A stretch of DNA of 64,000 nucleotides from Saccharofermentans sp. (GTDB taxonomy: Bacteria; Bacillota; Clostridia; Saccharofermentanales; Saccharofermentanaceae), in NCBI GenBank assembly GCA_024688685.1, contig JAILDX010000038.1:1-64000 (forward strand), given 5' to 3'. Positions within the stretch are counted from its first letter, which is position 1. The number at the start of each line of letters is the position of its first letter. A model generated the notes under the pieces. That model did not search any database. It worked only from the letters and a program-made list of their open reading frames with translations, and was not told the DNA's origin. Shown here in pieces: positions 4,301 through 31,718 of this stretch. A program made the translations under genes and the position numbers.

Positions 4301-7104
4301 CTGATGATCCGAGACGTGATAAGCTGCTGTATGCTATTCCTGAGGCTGAGACGAATCATTTCTTCGGAATGGAAATGAGTGCCAGATTCACACAGACAGT
4401 CAGCGGACTTGATGCCTGGGGACACGATATTATATTCGAATTCACAGGTGATGATGATTTCTGGCTATACGTAGATGATTATCTGATCCTAGATCTTGGC
4501 GGTATCCACAAAGCGTTGTCCGGCAAGGTTAACTTCAGGAACGGTGAGGTATCTCTTACAAACGAGGATGGCGGGATTACCAATACGAATCTCCGCACGC
4601 TGTTCGAGGAGGCTTATCGGGCTAAGTATCCTGATGCAACAGACGATGCAGTTAATTCCTTCCTTGCGACCAAATTCGAGCCCGGGGAGAATGTGTTTAT
4701 TGATTATTCTGCACATACGATGAAGGCTTTTTACATGGAGAGAGGCGCTGGTGCGTCCAATCTCAGGATGAGATTTAATCTCAGCGCTGTAGAGCCCGGT
4801 TCTGTTGTATTGACCAAGTCCTTGTCTGATGACAACGGTATATTTGATGATGTTGACAGCAGCCTTGCATCATTCCCGTTCCAGGTGTGGTACCAGAATG
4901 TGGAAGGCGGAGAATATAAGCTTCTGGATGATCCTGATGCCGTATCCTATTACAACTCGTATAAGACAAATGTTGATTACAGACCGTCCTATACTCTGCC
5001 GGATGGTTCCAAGACATACGATCATGTATTCTTCCTCAATGCTAACGATTCATTGCTGATCGATTTCCCGGATAATACGATCAACTACAGGATAGTTGAA
5101 TGCGGTGTAAATAATGCGGTTTATGATCATGTATCATGTAACGGCGCTGAGATAGAAGGAAATCAGGTCGGAACCAGCTCAAGATATGATTACTACAGTG
5201 TTGAAGGCAGGGTAGATGAAAGGCCTATAATCGTATTTGATAATAAGATCAGCGACAATCCTTTCAGATCTCTCAATATCAGAAAGAGATTGATCGACAA
5301 GGATGATCATGAGATAACCAGGGAACAGGATCCCACATATTTCAATTTCAGAGTATATCTCGGAAGCGAGAATGCCAGGATCGCCGATCTCAAGCCCGCA
5401 AATATGAGCAAGTACAGGGTAAAGGATCCGCATGGTTATTATTGTAAATGGGTAGTCGGATCAGGATTTGTATCTACCGGTATATCTGATGTATCGCAGA
5501 TCGACAGCGCAGAGACAACATTCTACACATCTCCTAACGGTGCGATCTCCAATATTCCTGCCGGCTATGTTGTCGAACTGTTCGGACTTCCCATTGGAAC
5601 AAAGTTCAGAGTCGAAGAACGTAAAAACGAGATACCTGTAGGATATCAGTTTGTAGAGTATAGCCGTGATGATGACCCGACTTACCAGGAGGGACAGCAT
5701 AAGGACGAAGGAAACATACAGGCCAGAGAAGAATCCAGTATCGTTACGGTCGTAAACAGGCAGGGATACGGTATAAAGGCACAGAAGGACTGGTCCGATG
5801 CTTCCTTTACATCATCCCACGATGTTATACACTTTGCGGTATATGTGAAGGATCCTGGTACAGGCGTTGAGACATTGATCAATGATTCTGTTCGTGCGAT
5901 CCGTCATCCGAATACTGAAGTGATATGGTTCTTTGATGATCTTAACGGTGTAGATTTCAGCAACTATGTCGTGCGCGAAGTAGAGGTAACATCACCTGTA
6001 TATGATGCATCTGATGACACAGTGGTAACCTCTTTCGGTTCAGTTAATAAGATAGTATCGGGAGGCTTAACCACAGTTGACGCTACTCCGAAGGGACAGA
6101 CTGACAGTTCTCCTTTCGGATATACAGTTGAGTACGATCAGGGACAGCCTACCGGTGCTTCGACTACCCTAATGAATTCCAGAACAGATAAGGTAACGAA
6201 CACCAGGGACGGAGGGATCGTTATCAATCTCGGAAAATGGAATGGAACCGACACGGAAAGAACGATCGACACGCCACTCGAAGACGGTGTATTCACGTTG
6301 CAGCATTACAAGAATGGTACTGTTGAGAACATCGGCAGTTTTACATCTGATCCGGATGGTGTTGTAACGATACTGTATGATTATGAGAGCGGCGGAGCTG
6401 ACAACTATTATATCATTACTGAGATCAAGTCTCCGGAAGGTTATATCGGACTGCCTGAGCCTGTTAAGTTCTATGTCAATGACGATCAGTCAGATGTAGT
6501 ATTTATCGACTGTGATCCTGCCGATGGATGGGCTAACCATAACACAAGACCGGCAGATAAGCTTATTGTTGATATAAATATCTATAATCCGCAGTTCGTA
6601 TTCGAAGTAGTCAAATACTCCGAAAAGATCAATGCTCCGCTGTCGGGTGCACAGTTCGGTCTGTACCGTCAGGTACAAGGTGTGGACGGTAATCCCATGA
6701 AGGATTATCTGCCTGTTTCAGGCATGGGTGCGATCTCGAGCGGCGGAGACGGTATTCTCCCCGGAGTCGACAGTACACTCTCTCCCGGTGTTTATTACCT
6801 GACAGAGAGATTTGCTCCAACGGGTTACGATATAATCGGTTCCGACATTATATTTGAGATAACAAAAGCGGGAACAGTAGAGCTTATAAGTGCACCATCA
6901 GGTGTTACGATGGATAGTCCTGTATTTGCAGACGGTACATATACATACAGGATGAAGGTAGTCGATCCCGCCAGTGGCTCGAAGGTAGTCCCCACCGGTA
7001 TCGATATGGACAGCGAAATACCGCTGATAGTAATACTATCGTCTCTGTCTGTATTGTCCTTGGCAGGATATATCTACAGCAGACGCAGCAACAGTAAGTG
7101 GTAA
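1360..7104 (+). CDS. Large cell-surface protein with fibro-slime domain and SpaA/prealbumin-like repeats, C-terminal sorting-like signal
   Basis: 1914 aa; N-terminal signal peptide; fibro-slime-like HDIIFEFTGDDDFWLYVDDYLILDLGGIHKALSGKVNF; C-terminal prealbumin-like (SpaA) segments (INAPLSGAQFGLYRQ...YYLTERFAPTGY); VVPTGI + hydrophobic helix + YSRRSNSKW tail. Confidence 0.85.
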   Translation: MNKKIRVLLCALLAAANIIAMFAPQVTVIAEDIVESEDLTEDEISGTEIPAETSDELSAESSSETEPVSDAVTPTETTADGSATVDEQGLYSYSGEAFILSLDYGDSDVTVDDTFTDVLLPSEGHEFIRAYMFSGNDDQNISLDISVPEDAEPLSDGVIEVYSVEDGSAGDVLVEDISAASGVIEIGAGTEGIVITKDTGRRLMNLEVNPEGSSEDITLSVEGLMPQNASVDASEVEVDDALAAYDISIMDGDNEYQPDEDNPLSVEITDPRISADKEHILWHISNDGTRERVTDLTISDGKITFIARSFSMYEIVEVEEPAPVEPGDVDDLIGQTLHMYNVLNNNKYYFGNSIATKGSTTLISKTEANSITTAALWHFDLVPGTTNNFILSSVDGSGNTVYMCMNDSGNMSLTDNAENATSFTIELYDNNAGQYYIYKKVGNKKYGLNQFNGVNGKGFAGWDGKDQGSIIRMTYPIVEEDDPAGLDGKSYGLVIYGKRAAMMSETKVVGESERRVAKAITFRKNVLNQEELIVTSGYDMTMWKFQNISGDKYYVTTEVDGVTKYLQITDTSISLVDADQTDDNCILTVTQGTGTYSGKIRISNANNYSPNLYSGGVSNGFGSFNDGKGNEWFNLATPSEIKEDDFVSYEATKVSISDRVSVPDGAKVIVYTRVWDDAAKKYNYYIIDSLGNLVPAIDDGNKITWMGLKVNTLLWDFTEYHYEGTNEPNYYYELYNSYTRKYLAPQITDGQVLSDNPIGINLNGRRNGEYSSSILAWDDPYYQYAGIKTQDGKIVSCLFTMAEDFFFAIVDDIPEVDEELTVVDTVDNDDYGITLKMIDFNNPLDKDKRDSLQAAVMGTNAYSQGGSQPDLVTKWLDDGYPTAVLSDRSLSDLFGSATEVNHLFLQNRYKESGYFEYNCTENFAHLGDDNNFVVYDQVGTVESVKLSLDHGQFLPYNDLTRGQISQLHTNTTDESDNSLASDDPRRDKLLYAIPEAETNHFFGMEMSARFTQTVSGLDAWGHDIIFEFTGDDDFWLYVDDYLILDLGGIHKALSGKVNFRNGEVSLTNEDGGITNTNLRTLFEEAYRAKYPDATDDAVNSFLATKFEPGENVFIDYSAHTMKAFYMERGAGASNLRMRFNLSAVEPGSVVLTKSLSDDNGIFDDVDSSLASFPFQVWYQNVEGGEYKLLDDPDAVSYYNSYKTNVDYRPSYTLPDGSKTYDHVFFLNANDSLLIDFPDNTINYRIVECGVNNAVYDHVSCNGAEIEGNQVGTSSRYDYYSVEGRVDERPIIVFDNKISDNPFRSLNIRKRLIDKDDHEITREQDPTYFNFRVYLGSENARIADLKPANMSKYRVKDPHGYYCKWVVGSGFVSTGISDVSQIDSAETTFYTSPNGAISNIPAGYVVELFGLPIGTKFRVEERKNEIPVGYQFVEYSRDDDPTYQEGQHKDEGNIQAREESSIVTVVNRQGYGIKAQKDWSDASFTSSHDVIHFAVYVKDPGTGVETLINDSVRAIRHPNTEVIWFFDDLNGVDFSNYVVREVEVTSPVYDASDDTVVTSFGSVNKIVSGGLTTVDATPKGQTDSSPFGYTVEYDQGQPTGASTTLMNSRTDKVTNTRDGGIVINLGKWNGTDTERTIDTPLEDGVFTLQHYKNGTVENIGSFTSDPDGVVTILYDYESGGADNYYIITEIKSPEGYIGLPEPVKFYVNDDQSDVVFIDCDPADGWANHNTRPADKLIVDINIYNPQFVFEVVKYSEKINAPLSGAQFGLYRQVQGVDGNPMKDYLPVSGMGAISSGGDGILPGVDSTLSPGVYYLTERFAPTGYDIIGSDIIFEITKAGTVELISAPSGVTMDSPVFADGTYTYRMKVVDPASGSKVVPTGIDMDSEIPLIVILSSLSVLSLAGYIYSRRSNSKW

Positions 7105-7114
7105 TTATTACTGT

Positions 7115-8047
7115 ATGAATAGCAGAAATATCATCAGACATTATGTAATGCCATTTATCATGCTGGCACTGGGTGCTTCGATAGCTGCGTTTGCGCTGGA
7201 GGAATTTCTGGTTCCCTTTACGATCCTGGACGGCGGAGTTGTCGGTGTGTCTATGATCATCAGTAAATACGTTCCTTTTAAACTCGGTCTGCTTACGATA
7301 ATAATCAATATTCCGTTCCTCTGGATGGGATACAAAAGACTGGGCAGGTTATTCCTGGCAAAATCCGTATTTGCAATGATCGTTTTTTCGTTCATGCTCG
7401 GAGTGTTCGAGGATATGAAAGCTATCACTGACAAGGAGATCCTGGTAGTCGCCTTCGGAGGTGTGCTGTTGGGGATCGGAGTAGGACTGATCTTAAAGAG
7501 CGGCGGATGTCTTGACGGAACAGAAACAGTTGCACTTATCATGAGCAGAAAGATGGATTTGTCGGTTGGTCAGATCGTGCTTGGATTCAATATCGTTATC
7601 TACGGGGTAGCAGGAGTTCTTTTCGGGATCGACAGGGCATTATACAGCCTGCTGACTTATTTCATCACATCAAAGGTTATAGATATTATTGAACATGGAA
7701 TGGAACAGGCCAAGTCGGTCATGATAATAACTGATCATGCAGAAGAGATCGCAGATGCCATTCATACCAGACTTGGCAGAACATGTACGGCAATTGAAGG
7801 CAGAGGCCGCATCTCTTCAGGCAAAAAGACGGTCCTTTATTGCGTAATAACCAGGATCGAGGTATCCGCGATCAAGAAGATAATTAACGATACGGACGGA
7901 TCCGCTTTCGTTACGATCAGCGATGTAAACGAGATCATTGGTTCACATATCAAGCGTAAAAAAAGCACCGTCTCCCGGAAATGGGACGGTGCTGGTGATC
8001 CCTCCAAAGAGCCTGTGATCACATCCCCGTCAAAGAATTCACAATAA
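7115..8047 (+). CDS. YitT family membrane protein (DUF161 + DUF2179)
   Basis: FALEEFLVPFTILDGGVVGVSMIISKY and GRGRISSGKKTVLYCVITRIEV...VTISDVNEIIGSH are typical of YitT proteins. Confidence 0.85.
   Translation: MNSRNIIRHYVMPFIMLALGASIAAFALEEFLVPFTILDGGVVGVSMIISKYVPFKLGLLTIIINIPFLWMGYKRLGRLFLAKSVFAMIVFSFMLGVFEDMKAITDKEILVVAFGGVLLGIGVGLILKSGGCLDGTETVALIMSRKMDLSVGQIVLGFNIVIYGVAGVLFGIDRALYSLLTYFITSKVIDIIEHGMEQAKSVMIITDHAEEIADAIHTRLGRTCTAIEGRGRISSGKKTVLYCVITRIEVSAIKKIINDTDGSAFVTISDVNEIIGSHIKRKKSTVSRKWDGAGDPSKEPVITSPSKNSQ
7958..7992 (-). terminator. Minus-strand terminator embedded in the 3' end of the YitT ORF
   Basis: GCACCGTC...GACGGTGC inverted repeat with an A7 run on its + strand left side (T7 on the minus strand). 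Confidence 0.6.
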
Positions 8048-11937: not shown

Positions 11938-12503
11938 GAAAGAATTATGTGATTGAATATATATTGATATTTATTCTGTTAGTCCTGTTTGGCTTTGCTC
12001 TGACAGGAACGCGTTTGTTTGACCTTACAAGAAAAGATGTTTACTCATACAACAAAGACCTGACTCTAAGAGAAGACGTCAGCACAGAGGTAACAGTATA
12101 TGGTGACGATTTTCACTATTAGACCCGTGTTCTCAGTGAGGGAACTGTTCTCAGTGCGCAATTCCTTGGCGTAAACGGGAATGTTTACAATCTCAATTTG
12201 AAAACTGATCCAAGGGAACCGGTCAGTATAAAAGACTTGCCGGCTGATTATTTCGCGGAAGAAGATATGATAAAAGAGGATCTGTCTTTGCTGATAGACG
12301 GCACGAGACAGGATATAAGAAGCATCATAATTAGAATGATCGTGATCTCGCTCTTTTGTTTGCTGATATCGGGATTTGTTGTTTTTGTTATGTATCGTAA
12401 GGACATTCCTCTTAAGACTCATAAAACTATAGTCGGGTTATTATCTTTAGCAATAGTGTTGATGATTGGTTGGTTTTTGGGATTAGTATTCTTAACAAGG
12501 TAA
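11934..12503 (+). CDS. Membrane hypothetical protein interrupted by an in-frame TAG at 12120-12122 (pseudogene or recoded)
   Basis: ORFs 11934..12122 and 12198..12503 lie in the same frame; the frame stays open across 12123-12197; start overlaps the upstream stop; N- and C-terminal TM segments. Confidence 0.6.
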
Positions 12504-12602
12504 TTCTTGAGTTGCTGCATGATACAACTTTGACACATCTGCTTGCTACAATTAAGAATAGATAACTATATTCTATATTGATAGTGATGGGGGAAAGTGT
12601 CT

Positions 12603-14849
12603 ATGTTTAAGAAAATCATTGCGTTGTTTTTGTCTGTAAGTGTAATGATGACTGCAGCAGCTTGCAGTAAAGAACCTGAGGAGAGCAATAATACACCTTC
12701 CGACGAGTTCACGGCAGGAAATCCCGATCATGAGACTACATATTATTCCACGAAGATGATCACACTGCCTCAGCATGCAGATTTCATCCTCTCATTTGTG
12801 AATGAAACAGGTCCTGTTTTCATTGCGGATAAAAGCACGATCAATACCGAAGAGCATAGAACGTATTGCGAATACACTCTTTATCAGTGTGATTACGAAG
12901 GTCAGGTGTTATCTGATACAGAATTGCAGGTTTCTGAACTGTACTATATCGAAGATCTGTGTGCACTAGATAATGAAAGGTTTGTCACCGTGGGGAAAGG
13001 TTCCGATTTCAGGATCTATTCCAACGATGGAAGCATAATAAGGGAAGGTGAAGATACAGGAATCGAATGCAACAGAGCAGTGTGTAAGACGACTGAAGGC
13101 TTCATGGTATGGATTGGTAATAAGATCGTGAAATATGATAACGAAGGTAAGTTCCTTGATTCGGTCGATGTGGAACTCTTCCCGGAAGGCTATTCCAAGA
13201 TTGGCATAACAGGAATTTTTGAACAGCGTGGAACTTGTTATGCCTATGGCGAAGCGTTTATAACAGAGAACTCCAGTACTGCTGGCTATTTCAGAATAGA
13301 TTTTGATGCTGGGTTACTGGAGGAATATGTCCACCCATATGAAATGGCCCAGGGATTTATGCCGGATTTCTTTCTATGGGCGGTTGACTATCACAGGAAT
13401 ACAATAGGAGAAGCTAATCGCGGAGATATAGTTGAGCTGGATCTTGAACAGAAGAAAGCCGAGATATGTGCGGACAGGAATAATATGCTCATATGTCCTC
13501 CCACATATGGTAATGATGACGGTCAGCCGATTAAGGTTCTGGATAAGTCTCATTTCTACAGAGACTATACTTACAGAGAGTTTAATCTTGATATTGCAGA
13601 GATAGCGCTTGTTGTTCCTGATGACAGCCTTGATCTTGGCAGCAGAACGAATATAACGATTCAAGGGGCTGGGGTATCTACTGATTCTTTGATACAGAAT
13701 GCCGCTTACTACTATAATGTGTCGCAGAATGATTATTTCATTACCTTTGATGAACTTACTGCAAGATATGGGTTCAATTCTCCCGAAAGCATGAAGACCA
13801 CAAAGCTTCAGTTGATCGCTCAGTATTCAAACGGCAAAGCTCCTGATATCTTTTACGGCGATTTCTTCGACTATGAGTATTTCGGTGAGAATGATATGGT
13901 CATTGATCTCAAACCGTATCTCGGTGACGATGAGATGTATGACAAGATGACGCGTGATGAAGGCAAGATATATCAGGTCTATGCAGGTTATGGTCTGCGC
14001 GGTTATTTCGGAAGATCAGATTTGTATTCCAGTGATGTTGATATTTCGTCGCTTCCTGATATCCCTGACGGACAGCAGAGATTTGGCAATGTTTTCGCGC
14101 CGGATCTCGTGTATGACATGATCGGAAGAGATCTCCGTTCAATATACCGCAGGGGAGAACTGACATATGAGAATGTGTTTGCGGCGGTTAAGACAGCCGT
14201 GGATTACGGGTATGAGCCTGATTATACATATGAGAATTATGATCCGACATTCCAGGAGGATGTCGGGAGCGGAAAGACATCTCTTAATAACAGCGCTATA
14301 AGTAATCCTCAGTCATATTATCAGATGAGTGTGGATTTCAGGGGAGATCCGGTCTATGTCGGATATCCTTCTATCGGAGGTTCAGTACATTCTTTTATGC
14401 CGGTATCGCTGGTGGCAGTGTCGTCTTCAACAGAACACGCAGATGTCTGTTGTGATTTTATCAGAACGCTGATGACTGTGGATACGCAGCGGAAGGTATG
14501 CTCATCAGGTTATATCCCGTCGAACGATGAAGTTCTTAATGAAATGATCGGTGTTGTTAAGGATCCGGATAATGCCTCGGATGAACTGATGACAATCTAC
14601 AGAAGACAGTTGATATATGACCGGAACAGGCAGGGTGAAGAGCAGATCATTCCGTTTACCTCTGAAATGGCTGACAACTATCTGGCAATGATCGGTGAAG
14701 CAGATACTGTCGATATTTATGACTGGGGACTTTGGATCATAGCAAGGGATGAAGTGACAGCTTACTATACTCAGGATAAGAGTGCTGAGGATGTGGCCGA
14801 TGCACTGTATTCAAGGTATCTTGTATATGCGCAGGAGAATTATGGGTAA
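12603..14849 (+). CDS. Solute-binding-protein-like lipoprotein (paralog of 8812..11073)
   Basis: Lipobox MTAAAC; PDIFYGDFFDYEYFGENDMVIDLKPYLGD and YDWGLWIIARDEVTAYYTQDKSAEDVADALYSRYLVYAQENYG shared with the paralog. Confidence 0.75.
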   Translation: MFKKIIALFLSVSVMMTAAACSKEPEESNNTPSDEFTAGNPDHETTYYSTKMITLPQHADFILSFVNETGPVFIADKSTINTEEHRTYCEYTLYQCDYEGQVLSDTELQVSELYYIEDLCALDNERFVTVGKGSDFRIYSNDGSIIREGEDTGIECNRAVCKTTEGFMVWIGNKIVKYDNEGKFLDSVDVELFPEGYSKIGITGIFEQRGTCYAYGEAFITENSSTAGYFRIDFDAGLLEEYVHPYEMAQGFMPDFFLWAVDYHRNTIGEANRGDIVELDLEQKKAEICADRNNMLICPPTYGNDDGQPIKVLDKSHFYRDYTYREFNLDIAEIALVVPDDSLDLGSRTNITIQGAGVSTDSLIQNAAYYYNVSQNDYFITFDELTARYGFNSPESMKTTKLQLIAQYSNGKAPDIFYGDFFDYEYFGENDMVIDLKPYLGDDEMYDKMTRDEGKIYQVYAGYGLRGYFGRSDLYSSDVDISSLPDIPDGQQRFGNVFAPDLVYDMIGRDLRSIYRRGELTYENVFAAVKTAVDYGYEPDYTYENYDPTFQEDVGSGKTSLNNSAISNPQSYYQMSVDFRGDPVYVGYPSIGGSVHSFMPVSLVAVSSSTEHADVCCDFIRTLMTVDTQRKVCSSGYIPSNDEVLNEMIGVVKDPDNASDELMTIYRRQLIYDRNRQGEEQIIPFTSEMADNYLAMIGEADTVDIYDWGLWIIARDEVTAYYTQDKSAEDVADALYSRYLVYAQENYG

Positions 14850-22648: not shown

Positions 22649-22676
22649 TTGACTTATATTTGCGCAATTCTATAAT
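22649..22676 (+). promoter_or_regulatory. Predicted sigma-A-type promoter of the lanthipeptide operon
   Basis: TTGACT-N16-TATAAT upstream of the precursor gene. Confidence 0.65.
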
Positions 22677-22711: not shown

Positions 22712-22936
22712 ATGGATAAGAGCTTTTTTGAGGAAATGAAGGGAAAGACAAGAGAAGAGAGAGCAGAACTGCTCAAGAATAATAAGGATGTTGCACTGTG
22801 TCTTGATGAGCTCGGTGCGGTTAACGGCGGTAACAATGAACGCGCGAATATGAATCCTAATTCTTCGGAGTGTCCGTACGTTGGCAACTGGATCTCTTCA
22901 TTTGGTTACATTTGCCGTGGTGAGGTAGTCTGCTGA
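22712..22936 (+). CDS. Class II lanthipeptide precursor
   Basis: 74 aa; leader ends in CLDELGAVNGG; core NNERANMNPNSSECPYVGNWISSFGYICRGEVVC contains Ser/Cys; directly upstream of LanM; RBS gaggagg. Confidence 0.85.
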   Translation: MDKSFFEEMKGKTREERAELLKNNKDVALCLDELGAVNGGNNERANMNPNSSECPYVGNWISSFGYICRGEVVC

Positions 22937-22964
22937 TAACAGATCCTGACAACTGATTAACTTT

Positions 22965-22996
22965 AAGTGGGATTGACCTATGGGCCAATCCCACTT
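22965..22996 (+). promoter_or_regulatory. Intercistronic hairpin between lanA and lanM
   Basis: Perfect 11-bp inverted repeat AAGTGGGATTG-acctatggg(c)-CAATCCCACTT. Confidence 0.7.
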
Positions 22997-23008
22997 ATAT
23001 TATTAGAT

Positions 23009-25741
23009 ATGTTTGAGAAGGAAGACTTATTATTCTATAAAATATCAGGATTTCTTGTTGAGTCTGTCGGTCTTGAGATTCCTGTTCTGAGCGCCGGAAG
23101 ATTTGTAATTACTCCTTCCTGTCAGGACGATATCAGAGAAGGTTTTGTAAGAAGAACTGCAAAGATTATAACTCCGGCATTATCCAAGATGCTCTTAATG
23201 TATCTGAATGATATTGATGTCCTCGACAGTTACATAGAGGACAGCGGCAGTGATTCACTTGATGTTTACAGAGATCAGTTTCTTGAGAAGATGACCGCTG
23301 ACAGCTGCGGAGAACTCCGGGGCAGAGTTCCGCAGCTCATAGAACTGATAAGAAAGATACATACGCAGTATATTGCGGTTATCGATGAGTTTATCCTGAG
23401 AGTTGATAATTCATATGATGTTATATGCAGCAGTCTTCTTCATAATCGTTTTTCCGAGCTTACCGGAATCTCTGTAGACAGCGGGGATGTCCATAATCAC
23501 GGCCATACGACTTCGATAGTTACGACAGATAAAGGGAAGTTCGTATATAAGCCTCATGATGTAAGGATAGATCTGCGTTCTTATGAACTTTTTAACCGTT
23601 TCTTCTCTGACATAATGAGGGCCCCGGCGGTCTGTTCCTTTGATGATTACGGTTTTTCCGGGTTTATTGAGAACAGATCTGCTTCCACGACTGAAGAAGC
23701 TGAGAAGTATTTCTATAATCTGGGAGGATTCGTTGCAGTAACCCTTATGCTTTGCAGCAGCGACCTTCACCATAACAATGTGCTTGCACAAGGCATCTAT
23801 CCTGTCATTATTGACTATGAACTGATGATGACCCCCGGAAAAAGAAAGCGTGACAACAGCCTCTCGCAGGAACTCTCGGATTCGCTCCTGTTTGGGTCGA
23901 TGATGCCCTGCAGACACGGCGATGTCGAAATGTGCATCCTCTATGCAGACGACAACAATAACCGGTCAGCCCCTGTAATAGATGGTGTACGCAAGACTGT
24001 TCTTGATTTTCCTGACGTATTTATCAGTGGCTTCAGAGATATCTACAGGCGCTGTATCGAGCAGCGTAATGATATAAAGGAATTCATTTCGTCCATGAAA
24101 GGCCTTTATATGAGGCATATTTACAGGGGAACGCGCGTCTATAACGAATTGCTGAAGAGTTCCACATCTCCGGCATGGATCACCGATGATAATCTGAGAG
24201 AAGAACTGTTTGACAAGCTGTCCCTGGCAATGAGACGGAGCGGCAACGATAAGGCCGGGGATATAACCAACGCTGAGGTTGATGCTATCCTTCGCGGTGA
24301 TATTCCATACATCTATATGAGAACAGATGAATGTGACCTCTATGCAGACGGAAAGGTCGTATATAAGGATTTCTTTGTCACGAGCTGCATTGACAATGTG
24401 CTGGACAGGATCGATCACTTGAATGAAGCAGATATGGAATTCGAGATCACGCTTCTTAGGAAATCGATGAACCGCTGCGTAAGAAAGGCGGAAGTTCCCG
24501 GCGCGGCAGGCCCCGTAATCACTGAACAGATTGAGATCTCAGACAATAAGCTGCTTAAGGAGGCAGAGTCCATCCTGAAAAAGATAGATGATGAGGCTGT
24601 GTATTCTCCTTCCGGCAAGGTGTGCTTTTTCGCTCCCAATTATTTCCTTGAGACCGGCATGAACTATATGAATAACGGTCTTATCGACGGAACTCTCGGT
24701 ATCGGTCTGTTTTGTGCCGCACTCGGCAGTATGACTTCGGACGACAAGACAAAGGAAATATGCGCACGTTATGTGAAGGTGTTTACGGAGAGACTGAAAA
24801 ACTCTGTTGATGCCCTTTCCAAACAGGAGGTCATCTATCCCAACGTCGAGAATGTTTCGTACATATCAGGCCTGACGGGAAAGATCCTCGGATCATATCT
24901 CATCTCGAAATACACATCCGATACCTCACTGAAAGAAACCTGCCGGAAGCTGATATCCCTTATCAACAAGATGGAGCTTGGGTTTGAGAGGACAGATATA
25001 TTTAACGGGCTTGCAGGACTTCTTAAGCTTCTTTGTAAATATGATGAACTCTATTCAATTAACGGAGTTCCGGAGATGTGTTCAAACCTGGCTGACAGAC
25101 TTGTCGCGTCTGCAGGCATTCCTTTTAACGGAAAGATGATATGGAAGACGCTTTCGTCAAACTGGGCAATATCCGGAGCAGGACACGGTCAGTCGGGAGT
25201 CTCGTCAGCTTTGTATATGGCTGGGAAGAGGCTTAACAGACAGGATCTGATCAATTTCTCACAAGCCGGTTTTGAGTTTGAGACCGGTGTTTACGATGCG
25301 AAACTTGGTGCATGGCCGGACAGAAGAGGCGGTGAGGTTACTGAGAAATACCTGACAGGATACTGCTCGGGAGCTCCGGGTATCGGCCTTAACGCTCTTG
25401 AGATCATGTATGACGGATATGAGGAAAACCTTGAGAGAGCAATCAGGGGAACTCTGAAAGAACCAATGAATCATAAGGATTTCCTTTGCTGCGGGAACTG
25501 CTCATCCATCGATTTCCTGCTCGAAGCAGGGCTAAAGACCGGCAGGACGGACCTCATAGGGGAAGCAAGGACAAGGATGGCATTTATCATTGACAGAGCT
25601 GAAAAGAACGGTGATTTCAACTACGTAAACAAGAGTCTGGTCAATATTTTCTCGCCGAGTCTCTTTTACGGAGCCTCAGGAGTTGGATATGAGATGCTCC
25701 GTCTGATCAATCCTGATATAATTCAAAGAGTTCTTCTTTGA
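23009..25741 (+). CDS. Type 2 lanthipeptide synthetase LanM
   Basis: DUF4135 dehydratase motif HNHGHTTSIVTTDKGKFVYKPHDVRID, DLHHNNVLAQGIYPVIIDYE; LanC-like GAGHGQSGVSSAL, GYCSGAPGIGL, DFLCCGNCSSIDFLLE. Confidence 0.93.
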   Translation: MFEKEDLLFYKISGFLVESVGLEIPVLSAGRFVITPSCQDDIREGFVRRTAKIITPALSKMLLMYLNDIDVLDSYIEDSGSDSLDVYRDQFLEKMTADSCGELRGRVPQLIELIRKIHTQYIAVIDEFILRVDNSYDVICSSLLHNRFSELTGISVDSGDVHNHGHTTSIVTTDKGKFVYKPHDVRIDLRSYELFNRFFSDIMRAPAVCSFDDYGFSGFIENRSASTTEEAEKYFYNLGGFVAVTLMLCSSDLHHNNVLAQGIYPVIIDYELMMTPGKRKRDNSLSQELSDSLLFGSMMPCRHGDVEMCILYADDNNNRSAPVIDGVRKTVLDFPDVFISGFRDIYRRCIEQRNDIKEFISSMKGLYMRHIYRGTRVYNELLKSSTSPAWITDDNLREELFDKLSLAMRRSGNDKAGDITNAEVDAILRGDIPYIYMRTDECDLYADGKVVYKDFFVTSCIDNVLDRIDHLNEADMEFEITLLRKSMNRCVRKAEVPGAAGPVITEQIEISDNKLLKEAESILKKIDDEAVYSPSGKVCFFAPNYFLETGMNYMNNGLIDGTLGIGLFCAALGSMTSDDKTKEICARYVKVFTERLKNSVDALSKQEVIYPNVENVSYISGLTGKILGSYLISKYTSDTSLKETCRKLISLINKMELGFERTDIFNGLAGLLKLLCKYDELYSINGVPEMCSNLADRLVASAGIPFNGKMIWKTLSSNWAISGAGHGQSGVSSALYMAGKRLNRQDLINFSQAGFEFETGVYDAKLGAWPDRRGGEVTEKYLTGYCSGAPGIGLNALEIMYDGYEENLERAIRGTLKEPMNHKDFLCCGNCSSIDFLLEAGLKTGRTDLIGEARTRMAFIIDRAEKNGDFNYVNKSLVNIFSPSLFYGASGVGYEMLRLINPDIIQRVLL

Positions 25742-25761
25742 TAGTGTGGTACAATAGCTTT

Positions 25762-27942
25762 ATGAAGATTCCTTTAGTAATACAGACACACAGTGGTGAG
25801 AATGCTATAGCGACGATTGCGTCAATGCTTTCTTATTATGGCAGGATTACTCCTCTTTCCGAGATGAGAGAGGGTAATATCACGTCAAGAGGCGGCTCCA
25901 CCCCTGAACAGATGAAGAAGATGGCCGCTAATTACGGCCTTGACTCTGAGATCGTAAAAGTCGGTGTTGACGATATTAAGAAAATGAAGTTTCCCGTTGT
26001 TGTCAGATGGAAGAGACTCTATTACTGTATCGTTAAGAAGATAAGTGGGAACAAAGTTTATCTTGCAGATCCGTCAAAGGGTGAATATCCTGTAGATCTC
26101 GCTACGTTTGAACGCGGCTATATGGGCACTGCGATCATCATGACGCCTAACAAGGACTTTGTTAAGGGCGGAAAGAGGCCTTCTCTTTACAAACTGATCG
26201 CCGTCCGTCTGAGCGGTGTAAGACAGAAGCTTCTTCTTCTTGCATTCCTCAATCTTATGGCTGTCGCTCTCAATATCCTTATGGTCGATGCCACGAAGGA
26301 TATGCTCGATCTTGCTTCCACCGGCAAGCCTGAGAGCATCCTCAATAATATCGTATCGATGGATGCCCTTAAGAGCTTTACTCCATATAATATCCTTGTT
26401 GTTGTTATGGGAGTGCTCCTTTTACTTCAGACCATTGTTGATATCTTCAAGACACTCCATATCTACCGTACATCATATTCTGTCGCTGCAAAGTCCAGTT
26501 CTTCAGTTTTTAAGAAGATACTGTACCAGCCTATGAGCTTCTTTGAGCAGTACAGAACAGGTGAACTTATCCAGCGTATGGAGGATAATACAAAACTCGA
26601 CCTTTCACTAGTCAGGACAATGGTCCCGAGAGTGCTCGATTTCTTCATGACCATCGTTTACTTTATCCTTATCGTCTCTTATCACTGGAAGATCGCCCTT
26701 ATGAGCGTCGGTGTTGAGATCATTTATCTCATCCTCTCGATGCAGATGAGAAGCAGGATCATCATGCAGTCAAGAAGCAATGCGGTCAATTCAGCGGCGA
26801 TGAACACATCGATCCTCAATGGTCTTGATACTATTGAGACGATCAAGTCCGGAGGCGTTGAGAGACTTTTCTTCTCCGGATGGAAGAAGACTCAGTCTGA
26901 TCTTGATTCGAGCAGAGTCAGCGGTATCGGCATTAATGCAATGTCAGGAGTTATCGACGGACTTCACGGTCTGTTATCACAGGGAATCCTTCTGTTTGCT
27001 GGTGCGTACTTTATCATCAACGGGGAGATGACACTTGGTATCATGGCTGCTCTTCAGACTGTATTAGGCAATTTCAGGAATACTTTCTCGAACTGCGTTA
27101 ATATGACAAACAGTCTTCAGAAGACAAGAACAGATATCGAACGAGTTGAAGATATCAGAGAGAGGGGAGAGCTTCCCCAGTATGATCTGCCTGAGGATGC
27201 TGAGCCTGACAAGCTTCTCGGAGAACTTGATATTTCGCATGTCTCCTACAGGTATCAGGCAGGCGAGCCCTTGTCTGTAGATGATGTTTCTTTTAAGGTT
27301 AAGCCGGGCCAGATCATTGCGATAGTCGGCGCTTCCGGATGCGGTAAGACAACTCTCCTTAAGTGTATACTGTCGCTTTATAAGCCTACATCGGGAGAAG
27401 TCAGATATAACGGCCTTCTGAGAGAAGAGATTCCTGATGTCGTATTCCATTCCACTATAACTGCTGTTGATCAGGAGTGTGTTGTATTTGAAGACACTAT
27501 CGCAAATAACCTCACGATGTGGGATACAACCGTAAATGATTATGAGATGATAATGGCTGCTAATGACGCGCACATCCATAAGAGGATCGCGCAGGAGAGA
27601 GAGGGCTATTATTCAAAGATGCTGGAGAACGGTCGTAACTTCTCCGGTGGTGAGATACAGAGACTTGAGCTTGCAAGAGCACTCTCTGCAGAACCTACGA
27701 TACTTCTTCTCGATGAGTTTACTTCTGCTCTTGATGCCGTTACGGAAGAAGAGGTGTTCAAATCGATAAGGCTTAAGGCTACGACATGTATCATTGTTGC
27801 TCACAGGCTTTCAACTGTTTCGCTCTGTGATTATATCCTTGTAATGGATAAGGGTAAGGTCGTACAAGAGGGAACACATGAAGAATTATATAACGTAGAC
27901 GGTCCTTACAGGGATCTTGTCAAAGTGTCAGGAGGATCGTGA
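25762..27942 (+). CDS. NHLM/LanT-type ABC exporter with a degenerate C39 peptidase domain
   Basis: N-terminal C39-like fold (VIQTHSGENAIATIASMLSYYGR...YLADPSKGEYPVDL), TM domain, Walker A GASGCGKTT, signature FSGGEIQRLELARAL. Confidence 0.9.
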   Translation: MKIPLVIQTHSGENAIATIASMLSYYGRITPLSEMREGNITSRGGSTPEQMKKMAANYGLDSEIVKVGVDDIKKMKFPVVVRWKRLYYCIVKKISGNKVYLADPSKGEYPVDLATFERGYMGTAIIMTPNKDFVKGGKRPSLYKLIAVRLSGVRQKLLLLAFLNLMAVALNILMVDATKDMLDLASTGKPESILNNIVSMDALKSFTPYNILVVVMGVLLLLQTIVDIFKTLHIYRTSYSVAAKSSSSVFKKILYQPMSFFEQYRTGELIQRMEDNTKLDLSLVRTMVPRVLDFFMTIVYFILIVSYHWKIALMSVGVEIIYLILSMQMRSRIIMQSRSNAVNSAAMNTSILNGLDTIETIKSGGVERLFFSGWKKTQSDLDSSRVSGIGINAMSGVIDGLHGLLSQGILLFAGAYFIINGEMTLGIMAALQTVLGNFRNTFSNCVNMTNSLQKTRTDIERVEDIRERGELPQYDLPEDAEPDKLLGELDISHVSYRYQAGEPLSVDDVSFKVKPGQIIAIVGASGCGKTTLLKCILSLYKPTSGEVRYNGLLREEIPDVVFHSTITAVDQECVVFEDTIANNLTMWDTTVNDYEMIMAANDAHIHKRIAQEREGYYSKMLENGRNFSGGEIQRLELARALSAEPTILLLDEFTSALDAVTEEEVFKSIRLKATTCIIVAHRLSTVSLCDYILVMDKGKVVQEGTHEELYNVDGPYRDLVKVSGGS

Positions 27943-27943
27943 T

Positions 27944-30103
27944 ATGGGTATATATACCAAGACAATTAAAGACCGCGATCGTCTTGATAAGGATATGGTG
28001 GAGCAGGCTGAGCTTCACCTGATGAACAGGATCAGGAATAATGCGACCGACAAGACTACTGACGGGTCTCAAACTGCTGTTAATTACATATTAAACAAGT
28101 TCAGTCTCTCTTCGCGCGAGGTTTATGAGTATTCCGATACTTTCGAGCTTCTTGATCAGATGCTCGATCCTCTGGGTGTTATGTATGAGCAGGTTGATCT
28201 AACTGATCCCGTATGGAAGAAGAGAACTGAATATATGCTCGGTTATCTGGATAATGGAAGAGCCGTTGTTCTTTATCCTTCAGTTCATGGATACAGATAC
28301 TTTTATCCTTACGATGGTAAGAAATACAGGGTAACTAATGATACAAAGCTTCAGAATACAGGTTATGTTATTCACAGACCTTTAAGATGCAGTTCCGCAT
28401 CTATCCTGTCTCTTACCAATTTTATGCTTCATCTTATTTCGAAGAGAGACCTGATCCTTATCGGAGTTTCTTCGATGCTTGTCTCTCTGCTCGGTCTTGT
28501 AACGCCTAAGATGAATCAGTACGTGCTCAACGATATCGTTCCGTTAGGGAACAGCGGCTATGCACTTCTTTTCAGAGCTCTTATGCTGTTCCTGCTCTGC
28601 GGGATCTTAAAGACTGGTATTACGACTATCAAGACCGTTTTCCTTGGAAAGATGCGTATCCGCATCTCTTCTGAAGCCCAGTCAGCAACGATGACGAGAC
28701 TTCTTCTCCTGCCGCAGTCTTTCTTTACAAAGGCATCTACCGGTAAACTTTCAAAGCAGATAGGCAATTCAAGAGCCCTTTATGATCAGATTATCGGTTT
28801 TATAATGGGTTCAGCTCTTACGGTTATCTGTTCATTGGTCTATCTCCATCAGATGGGAACATTCTCTCCCGTACTTCTTGTTCCTGCTGTTTCTGTTCTT
28901 GTTGTACGAAGCATATTCAGATTTGTTGCAGGCATCTTCCATTCAGACAACCAGCGCAATCATCAGGAAGCCGGAATGGAAGAAAGATCATTCATGTATA
29001 CTTCTCTCAGGGGTATACAGAGGATCAAGGAAAGCGGAGCCGAGAAGAGGATATATGCAAGATGGGCAGAACGTTTCCATAGTGTTCTGACGCTTGAACT
29101 CGACCAGCCTGCAATACTGAAGTTTGAGGATGTCGTTCTCGGATTCCTCAGCTCTCTCTGTACTGTCATAATGCTGTCCCTTATAATTCCGAATGATATT
29201 TCCAAGGCTGACTATATCGCATTTAACTCATCTTTTGCCATCATTACAACAGCCGTTTCCGAGCTGCTGGATGCTCATCGCAAGATCATAACGATGAAGC
29301 CTATGCTCGAGAATTTCAAGATACTTATCGATACACCTCCTGAGGCAAACGAGAATCAGATCGTTATGCGCAAGGTCAAGGGTGATATCAAGCTTGAGAA
29401 TGTCTGTTTCTCATACGATGACGGCAGGATCGACTGTCTAGATGATGTTTCGATACATGTGTCGCAGGGTGAGAAGATCGCTATTGTAGGTGAGAGCGGA
29501 TGCGGCAAGAGTACGTTGCTCAAGATAATACTCGGTTCGCTCAAACCGAACAGCGGTTCTGTATATATCGACAATATCCCGATAGATACACTGAACCTCA
29601 GATCATACAGAAGACATATCGGTGCTGTTTTCCAGTTCAGCAGGGTAATGCCGGGAACAGTTTATTCCAATATCGCGTTCTGCCCGCGCCCTGTCAGCCT
29701 TGAAGAGGCAAAGGACGCTGCAGAGAAGGCTGCTATAGCTGATGTTATTGATAATCTGCCGCTTCAGTACGATACTGAGCTTTCTGATTCCAATTCCGGC
29801 GGCTTCTCCGGAGGCCAGAGGCAGAGGCTCCTTCTTGCAAGAGCTTTCGCGAGCAAGCCCGGTATAATGATCCTCGATGAGGCAACATCCGCTCTTGACA
29901 ACATTGCTCAGAATAAGGTTCTCGACTCTGTTTATAAGGAAAAGTGTACCGTTGTTATGGTCGCTCACCGTTTGTCCACTGTTATCAACTGTGACAGGAT
30001 AATCCTTCTTAAGAACGGAAGGATTGCTGAAGAAGGCAAATATCAGGAACTCATGGACCTTAAGGGCGAATTCTATGAACTTATGAGACGTCAATCAGAT
30101 TGA
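27944..30103 (+). CDS. NHLM-type second ABC exporter subunit (no C39 domain)
   Basis: Walker A GESGCGKST, FSGGQRQRLLLARAF, extended N-terminal region typical of NHLM_micro_ABC2-like proteins; one start after the lanT stop. Confidence 0.85.
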   Translation: MGIYTKTIKDRDRLDKDMVEQAELHLMNRIRNNATDKTTDGSQTAVNYILNKFSLSSREVYEYSDTFELLDQMLDPLGVMYEQVDLTDPVWKKRTEYMLGYLDNGRAVVLYPSVHGYRYFYPYDGKKYRVTNDTKLQNTGYVIHRPLRCSSASILSLTNFMLHLISKRDLILIGVSSMLVSLLGLVTPKMNQYVLNDIVPLGNSGYALLFRALMLFLLCGILKTGITTIKTVFLGKMRIRISSEAQSATMTRLLLLPQSFFTKASTGKLSKQIGNSRALYDQIIGFIMGSALTVICSLVYLHQMGTFSPVLLVPAVSVLVVRSIFRFVAGIFHSDNQRNHQEAGMEERSFMYTSLRGIQRIKESGAEKRIYARWAERFHSVLTLELDQPAILKFEDVVLGFLSSLCTVIMLSLIIPNDISKADYIAFNSSFAIITTAVSELLDAHRKIITMKPMLENFKILIDTPPEANENQIVMRKVKGDIKLENVCFSYDDGRIDCLDDVSIHVSQGEKIAIVGESGCGKSTLLKIILGSLKPNSGSVYIDNIPIDTLNLRSYRRHIGAVFQFSRVMPGTVYSNIAFCPRPVSLEEAKDAAEKAAIADVIDNLPLQYDTELSDSNSGGFSGGQRQRLLLARAFASKPGIMILDEATSALDNIAQNKVLDSVYKEKCTVVMVAHRLSTVINCDRIILLKNGRIAEEGKYQELMDLKGEFYELMRRQSD

Positions 30104-30116
30104 TGGACGTCTTTTT
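30086..30116 (+). terminator. Terminator at the end of the lanthipeptide operon
   Basis: AGACGTC...GGACGTCT followed by ttttgtttttttt. Confidence 0.75.
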
Positions 30117-30176
30117 GTTTTTTTTATTTATAGTGTTATAATCTCAAGGTTGAGTTTCTTATTCAGGGGGGAAAGG

Positions 30177-31718
30177 ATGAAGAAGGTTGCACAGGAAAGG
30201 GCTCGCAGGGCCAGAATAAAGAAAAGGATCATTATTATTTCCGTCGTATCTGTTCTTGCTGTAGCATTGATCGCAGCAGGCGCATTCTTCTATATCAAAA
30301 CTACAGGCTACAAGGGAACGGTCGGTTCCTGTTCATGGACGCTTAATAATGACGGTGTCATGACTGTCAGCGGCAGCGGAAGCACAAAGGGCCGGGTATT
30401 TGTTACATTCGGAATCGGCAAATGTTCGCTTGAAGATGTTAAGGAGATCGTTCTGGAAGAAGGTGTAACCGATGTTTCAGCTCCCTTTATCAAGGCCATG
30501 ACGAATCTTACGAAGGCAACTGTTCCTTCATCCGTAGGTGACATCGAAGACGGTACATTCACTTCAAACAAGCTTCTTTCTTCTATTCTTGTAGCTGAAG
30601 GCAATGCAAACTATTCATCTCTCGACGGAAGCCTTTACGATAAGGGCAAGACAAAGCTCATCTGCTATCCGTCAGCTATCGCTAATACTGAATTCATAGT
30701 ACCTGATTCTGTTCAGGAAATCGGTGTTTATGCATTTAAGGATGCAGCTAACCTTACATATATCTGTATTAACAGCGGACTTATGGTAATTGATGATCTT
30801 GCTTTTATCGGTATGCCCAAGCTTGAGACGATCGGTGTCTCTGAAGGCAACGGCAGCTATATTTCAGAAGGCCACGCACTTTATGATATCGGAAAGACAA
30901 CAGTCATCAGATTCCCTTCTTCATGCTCTGCTCTCACATTTGAGACTCCGGATACGGTTACACAGATTGCTGATGCTGCATTTGAAGGCTGTACGAATCT
31001 TACCGGCATCACTCTGAATGACCGCATAAACCGCATCGGTGTAGGCGCTTTCAGCGGATGCTCAAGCCTTACTGAAATCACAGTGCCTGAAGGTTGCAGA
31101 AGGATCTGTGACAGTGCGTTCTCCAAGTGTACAAGTCTCAAATCGGTAACACTTCCTTCAGAATATACATCTATCCCTTCGAATCTGTTCTGGGGATGCA
31201 CATCTCTTGCAAATGTGTCTATCCCTGAGACAGTTACTTCGATAGGTGACGGTGCTTTCTGTAACTGTACAGCTCTCACTAACATTAATATTCCTGTTAA
31301 TGTAACTTGTATTGGAAAGAATGCTTTTGGCGGATGTATCGGACTTGCGTCTGTCCAGCTTCCGGAAGGTCTTTCCGCTATTTCAGATTACGCATTTAAC
31401 AAGTGTACTGCACTTAAGGAACTTGTAATTCCCGAGTCAGTATCTGCAGTCGGATATGCATCTTTTGCAGACTGCAAGAGCCTGACTGCAGTAACTGTTC
31501 CTGACGGCGTTGCTTCGGTCGGAGATTTTGCGTTCTTTAACTGCAGCGGACTTTCAACCGTCAATCTCGGAAGAGGCGTTAAGACTGTAGGTGAATCAGC
31601 CTTCAGGAACTGCACAAGCCTTGGCAGCGTCTTCTATGCAGGAAGTCAGGCAGAATGGTCAGGTGTTTCTGTTGGAAGCAATAACGATAAGCTCGCATCT
31701 TCCGTACAGTTCAAATAA
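30177..31718 (+). CDS. BspA-like leucine-rich repeat protein, membrane-anchored
   Basis: N-terminal TM helix; multiple ~23-aa LRR_5 repeats such as AFSGCSSLTEITVPEGCRRICDSAFSKCTSLKSVTLPSEY. Confidence 0.9.
   Translation: MKKVAQERARRARIKKRIIIISVVSVLAVALIAAGAFFYIKTTGYKGTVGSCSWTLNNDGVMTVSGSGSTKGRVFVTFGIGKCSLEDVKEIVLEEGVTDVSAPFIKAMTNLTKATVPSSVGDIEDGTFTSNKLLSSILVAEGNANYSSLDGSLYDKGKTKLICYPSAIANTEFIVPDSVQEIGVYAFKDAANLTYICINSGLMVIDDLAFIGMPKLETIGVSEGNGSYISEGHALYDIGKTTVIRFPSSCSALTFETPDTVTQIADAAFEGCTNLTGITLNDRINRIGVGAFSGCSSLTEITVPEGCRRICDSAFSKCTSLKSVTLPSEYTSIPSNLFWGCTSLANVSIPETVTSIGDGAFCNCTALTNINIPVNVTCIGKNAFGGCIGLASVQLPEGLSAISDYAFNKCTALKELVIPESVSAVGYASFADCKSLTAVTVPDGVASVGDFAFFNCSGLSTVNLGRGVKTVGESAFRNCTSLGSVFYAGSQAEWSGVSVGSNNDKLASSVQFK

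Follow-up and report, generated by a model that had tools for sequence, protein, structure and literature searches.

As a rule, a double-glycine leader is cleaved by the exporter encoded in its own cluster. The question raised by the locus at positions 22712-30103 of the window (the whole stretch of 64,000 nucleotides from Saccharofermentans sp. that was analysed) is how a class II lanthipeptide could be matured when the exporter encoded beside its precursor has lost its catalytic residues.

Organization of the locus

The four open reading frames lanA-lanM-ABC1-ABC2 reported in a preliminary description of this DNA were all found on the + strand and in that order, and so were the promoter and the terminator predicted there. 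The promoter, TTGACT-16-TATAAT upstream of lanA (22649..22676, + strand), is a strong sigma-70-like sequence with 11/12 matches to the consensus, identified by consensus match only. The operon is closed by a terminator-like (intrinsic) inverted repeat, GACGTC...GACGTC, with a T-run (around 30087..30126, + strand), which was seen by eye and is absent from the list produced by the consensus scan. Immediately 3' of the operon lies a gene for a BspA-type leucine-rich-repeat surface protein (30150-31718); it is preceded by a promoter-like TATAAT of its own and probably has nothing to do with the operon.

Three features are additions to that description, namely the distal precursors and the dead C39 domain treated below, and a strong RNA hairpin (z -4.1) between lanA and lanM (22964..22997, + strand), a predicted attenuator or partial terminator. 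An equivalent intergenic hairpin, followed by TTTTT, is found in the sister locus of Ruminococcaceae bacterium YRB3002 (L012), and the structure probably reduces the share of the abundant lanA transcript that continues into lanM. The lanM frame is open from a GTG at 22967, which falls inside the hairpin stem, so that the ATG at 23009 is the likelier start (23009..25741, + strand). The frames of ABC1 (25762..27942, + strand) and ABC2 (27944..30103, + strand) are open from TTG codons at 25738 and 27917, respectively, and the ATG codons at 25762 and 27944 are the more likely starts, in agreement with the homologues; that of ABC2 is supported by the start of its homologue in L012. The operon showed neither a LanP-type protease gene nor LanFEG-type genes.

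The LanA precursor

The lanA gene has a good ribosome-binding site and codes for a leader of 40 amino acids (22712..22831, + strand) that ends in VNGG and carries Val at position -4, Leu at -7 and Leu at -12. This is the pattern by which C39 peptidases recognise leaders (PMC6363468, PMC10885120), and it is retained, together with the double glycine, in 5/5 related leaders. The core, NNERANMNPNSSECPYVGNWISSFGYICRGEVVC, followed by the stop codon (22832..22936, + strand), contains four Ser, no Thr and three Cys, exactly as had been quoted, and is conserved with a YRB3002 precursor (81% identity across the 27-residue core tail). In line with the earlier remark that it was not recognised as a named lantibiotic, the precursor had no match in Pfam or NCBIfam. 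A leader followed by a core with Ser/Thr and Cys thus adjoins lanM, as in other class II clusters, and the product would be a class II lanthipeptide, a known kind, with a core lacking a known family match.

Peptides of the lacticin 481/mersacidin type carry a TxSxEC motif. The core has NSSEC, with neither Thr nor Ser five residues ahead of the Cys, and was therefore not assigned to this type.

A CCG-type LanM synthetase

LanM is complete and has both a dehydratase and a cyclase domain, which bears out the proposal of a class II lanthipeptide precursor accompanied by LanM and a paired exporter. Its domains match PF13575 (DUF4135; 1.9e-61) and PF05147 (LANC-like; 1.5e-40), and it scores 505 bits with the class II model TIGR03897, well over the cut-off of 304. 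Alignment to LicM2 and CylM located the dehydratase motifs GDVHNHG, VYKPH, SSDLHHNNV, VIIDYE and RHIYRGT, and the cyclase motifs GAGHG, YCSGAPG and LCCGN. The last of these stands where CylM reads LCHGN, so that the third zinc ligand is Cys, not His, and LanM is of the CCG type. The same CCG motif is present in the YRB3002 LanM, which is 51-52% identical to it.

This lanM is the single LanC-like gene of the draft genome. A LanM homologue was found in just one other of 117 family genomes, and no close relatives outside the family appeared, at a threshold of E <= 1e-60, among 399 genomes sampled at the level of the phylum and 392 at that of the class, two sets that partly overlap.

Dispersed precursors with two types of core

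Two further precursors were detected in the draft genome with a model built from three sequences, the precursor of the window and the tandem pair of YRB3002, the two distal ones themselves not being included. They are encoded at C27:2731-2931 (- strand, profile match 4e-27) and C2:43520-43771 (+ strand, 3e-21), both are intact and have ribosome-binding sites, and a terminator-like hairpin belonging to the C27 gene was seen by eye. The "compact operon" of the preliminary description therefore stands as to gene order but is incomplete, because two more precursors, probably for the same LanM, sit on other contigs. Beyond these five, no convincing precursor was found in the genus or family (best other match E 0.001), and the model search found none in 391 other class-level genomes.

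The neighbour genes of the distal precursors have homologues in 55/59 and 58/59 genus genomes; the flanks are thus native to the genus. This makes contamination by foreign DNA less likely, but not the admixture of a congener. The draft is ~90% complete with 1.8% contamination, and in this state a distal precursor may belong to a closely related organism, or a further LanM may be absent from the assembly. With one LanM in the genome, modification in trans is the natural reading, and the same enzyme probably also modifies the C27 and C2 precursors.

Two types of core can be told apart, CPY (window, C2 and the second YRB3002 precursor) and GFW (C27 and the first YRB3002 precursor). Core-tail identity in the nearest cross-genome pairs is 81% (CPY) and 69% (GFW); it is 58-62% between the C2 core and the remaining CPY cores, and 31-54% between types. 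All precursors share a Ser/Thr in NPNS/NPDT, an S/T-S pair before [FW]G[YF]xC and two C-terminal Cys, and the GFW-type core lacks the first Cys. Each type occurs in both genomes (n=2 genomes only), which suggests that the CPY and GFW peptides may form a two-peptide product.

Immediately 3' of the CPY-type precursor on contig C2 of the same genome (G000), and adjoining it, there is an ORF of 83 amino acids (L058:6798-7049) in which a GG leader (MITNLTPDQLYDISRL...ELEEVSGG) precedes a zinc-ribbon-like core containing CPVC; it resembles a substrate of the intact NHLM exporter described below.

An exporter with a dead C39 domain

Both transporters carry ABC membrane and ATPase domains, and their best-scoring models were NHLM ABC1 and NHLM ABC2, respectively (TIGR03796/TIGR03797), with scores that stay below the equivalog cut-offs (571 of 853 bits for ABC1, 500 of 709 for ABC2). 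The proposal of two NHLM-type exporters is thus right in terms of similarity. ABC1, however, is not functional as a processing exporter, having lost the two catalytic residues of its C39 domain, and its partner ABC2 has no peptidase domain.

The degenerate C39-like domain of ABC1 (25768..26154, + strand; PF03412, 8e-24) aligns full length to the LahT protease (6mpz), with GENAIA for ECGAAS and KRLYYCIV for NFNHFVVL. The codon of Asn14 (25801..25803, + strand) aligns with the catalytic Cys and that of Tyr87 (26020..26022, + strand) with the catalytic His, whereas Asp103 and the oxyanion-side Gln are retained, so that the triad reads Asn14/Tyr87/Asp103. Of the traits that define the AMS/PCAT exporters, ABC1 has the C39 fold fused to an ABC transporter and lacks the catalytic Cys-His-Asp. 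The first 460 residues of the protein were modelled; the membrane part is of low confidence, and the comparison used the C39-like domain (residues ~10-135, pLDDT mostly 60-88), which matches the C39 structures of LahT (TMt 0.82) and the C39-like domain of HlyB (TMt 0.68).

The Cys and His are lost in 6/6 members of the ABC1 clade (the window, YRB3002 and four rumen Lachnospiraceae MAGs) and in 0/27 other near relatives, those inspected from the class-level survey (24 plus L110-L112), all of which have Cys/His/Asp. Within the clade the change from Cys to Asn is invariant (6/6), the His is replaced by Tyr or Trp, and the Gln and Asp are kept, in lineages that share only 47-73% identity.

Without the catalytic Cys and His, the usual route of leader cleavage is closed to this locus. 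Type I secretion is known to include exporters without the catalytic Cys, whose C39-like domain recruits the substrate (PMC6363468), and by a role borrowed from HlyB we infer that the C39-like domain of ABC1 may serve as a docking domain for the lanthipeptide leader. A single further full NHLM-type C39 exporter is encoded in the genome; it lies on contig C40 and retains Cys, His and Asp. In YRB3002 two additional C39 exporters are present. The simplest explanation would be that the leader is cut in trans by the intact exporter of C40.

The sister locus and relatives beside a reverse transcriptase

The YRB3002 locus (L012) consists of a lanA pair, lanM, ABC1 and ABC2. It shares with the window the order lanM-ABC1-ABC2, the dead C39 domain and the intergenic terminator hairpin, and differs from it in having both core types in tandem at the locus, other flanking genes and a LanM only about half identical. 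A small membrane protein (DUF2809; L012:8582-8971) overlaps the end of ABC2 in YRB3002 and is a possible immunity gene, which is not in the window operon. Elsewhere in that genome (G063, contig C19), an ORF with a GG leader and a TGPLG-repeat core (L059:8782-9117) adjoins an HlyD-like gene and an intact NHLM exporter. From the sister locus and the MAG relatives we infer a rumen origin for the window.

In the four rumen Lachnospiraceae MAGs, a UG26-type reverse transcriptase is followed directly by a dead-C39 ABC1 and ABC2 (L010:6761-13768, L011:1823-8812, L013:391-7373 and L014:1619-6140), an unexpected pairing of a reverse transcriptase with a peptide-exporter operon. The enzyme of L010 matches the PADLOC UG26 group (2.9e-89), that of L013 matches PF00078, and a methyltransferase-like gene follows the exporter pair in L010, L011 and L013, the three loci that are long enough. 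No LanC-like gene was found in these four genomes. The clade is therefore not lanthipeptide-specific, and this is the main argument against naming ABC1 a dedicated LanT.

A conserved non-coding stretch of ~215 nt (80% mean identity) lies between ABC2 and the methyltransferase gene (L010:12328-12541, L011:~7390-7640, L013:~5960-6200), and occurs twice in L010, flanking that gene (12328-12541 and 13758-13972). It had no Rfam match and its predicted fold shows little covariation; it is a candidate RNA partner of the reverse transcriptase.

The open-access literature that was searched yielded no account of a lanthipeptide exporter whose C39 domain is dead, of the YRB3002 locus or of a UG26 reverse transcriptase beside an exporter. 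A 2026 survey of the Hungate1000 collection counts 30 class II clusters; YRB3002 does not appear in its main text and may be among them (PMC13289728).

Proposed maturation route and alternatives

On balance, the locus probably makes a class II lanthipeptide in the following manner. LanM would bind the conserved LanA leader, dehydrate Ser residues of the core, probably that of NPNS and the SS pair before FGYIC, and couple them to the three Cys, and it would act on the C27 and C2 precursors in trans. ABC1/ABC2 would export the modified peptide, with the C39-like domain limited to docking of the leader because it is unable to cut. Removal of the leader would fall to a different protease, the best candidate being the intact C39 domain of the C40 exporter, or else would take place outside the cell, and the CPY-type and GFW-type peptides would probably act as a pair, possibly with an antibacterial role.

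Part of this would also be covered by an ordinary operon for a single-peptide class II lantibiotic, with the leader retained during export and cut extracellularly by a general or host-gut protease and the distal precursors left as relics. Activation by a second protease that acts outside the cell is known for some lanthipeptides, for example by LicP in the case of lichenicidin, and neither an ABC1 that cannot cut nor the operon, where no dedicated LanP-type gene was seen, offers a peptidase of its own. However, the leaders keep the full double-glycine, V-4/L-7/L-12 pattern that is read by C39 enzymes, and the distal precursors are intact, with ribosome-binding sites and both core types kept, so that we consider this unlikely. 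Still less likely is that ABC1/ABC2 have a role in immunity or export something else, the lanthipeptides being both cut and exported by the intact NHLM exporter of C40. That exporter is available in the same genome and the dead-peptidase clade does occur next to a reverse transcriptase with no LanM, but in both lanthipeptide genomes ABC1/ABC2 lie directly 3' of LanM in the same order, and the clade retains a C39 fold that, to judge from the model, could bind the leader.

The two missing catalytic residues could also reflect drift in a decayed, non-functional cluster. We regard this as highly improbable, since all the ORFs are intact, the same kinds of replacement (invariant Asn; Tyr or Trp) are maintained throughout such divergent lineages along with the Gln and Asp, and identity between the two genomes is higher in the CPY core (81%) than in LanM (51%).

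Beyond the route that we favour, a wider proposal is possible, if rather doubtful: a split system outside the cyanobacteria, in which a CCG-type LanM works in trans, one exporter docks and a second one cleaves, and whose docking exporter module has also been recruited by a reverse-transcriptase system.

Comparison with known systems and significance

With class II (LanM) clusters in general, the locus shares a GG-leader precursor, a bifunctional LanM and ABC export genes in one operon, and it departs from them in its peptidase-dead exporter, the lack of LanP/LanFEG-type genes and the presence of precursors on other contigs as well. ABC1 has the C39, ABC membrane and ATPase order of LahT and PCAT1 (AMS/PCAT, NHLM-type), their C39 fold and their leader residues V-4/L-7/L-12, but Asn and Tyr for the catalytic Cys and His. 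The C39-like domain (CLD) of HlyB likewise has the C39 fold without the catalytic Cys and keeps it for substrate recruitment (PMC6363468), although HlyB is part of a type I system of three components that carries a large protein, whereas here the cargo is presumably a GG-leader RiPP, the His is lost as well and the exporter is an ABC1/ABC2 pair.

ProcM is a CCG-type LanM with 29 dispersed substrates, and the prochlorosin-like clusters of marine cyanobacteria are described as the only earlier case of a highly promiscuous CCG LanM with diverse precursors (PMC10027976). Judged from its gene content, the window system is a small prochlorosin-like arrangement: it has one LanM with the CCG motif, the only one in this draft genome, and several precursors scattered across the genome and unlinked to it. 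It differs in having three precursors with conserved cores in a Clostridia-type host, instead of highly diverse cores on a Nif11-type leader, its own leader being without Pfam or NCBIfam match.

Unlinked precursors of this kind would be missed by cluster miners based on proximity, and the system would bring dispersed substrates for a CCG-type LanM into a gut/rumen-type lineage of Clostridia. An exporter clade with a docking fold but no active site would separate recognition of the leader from its cutting, and makes a non-proteolytic role of the C39 domain testable.
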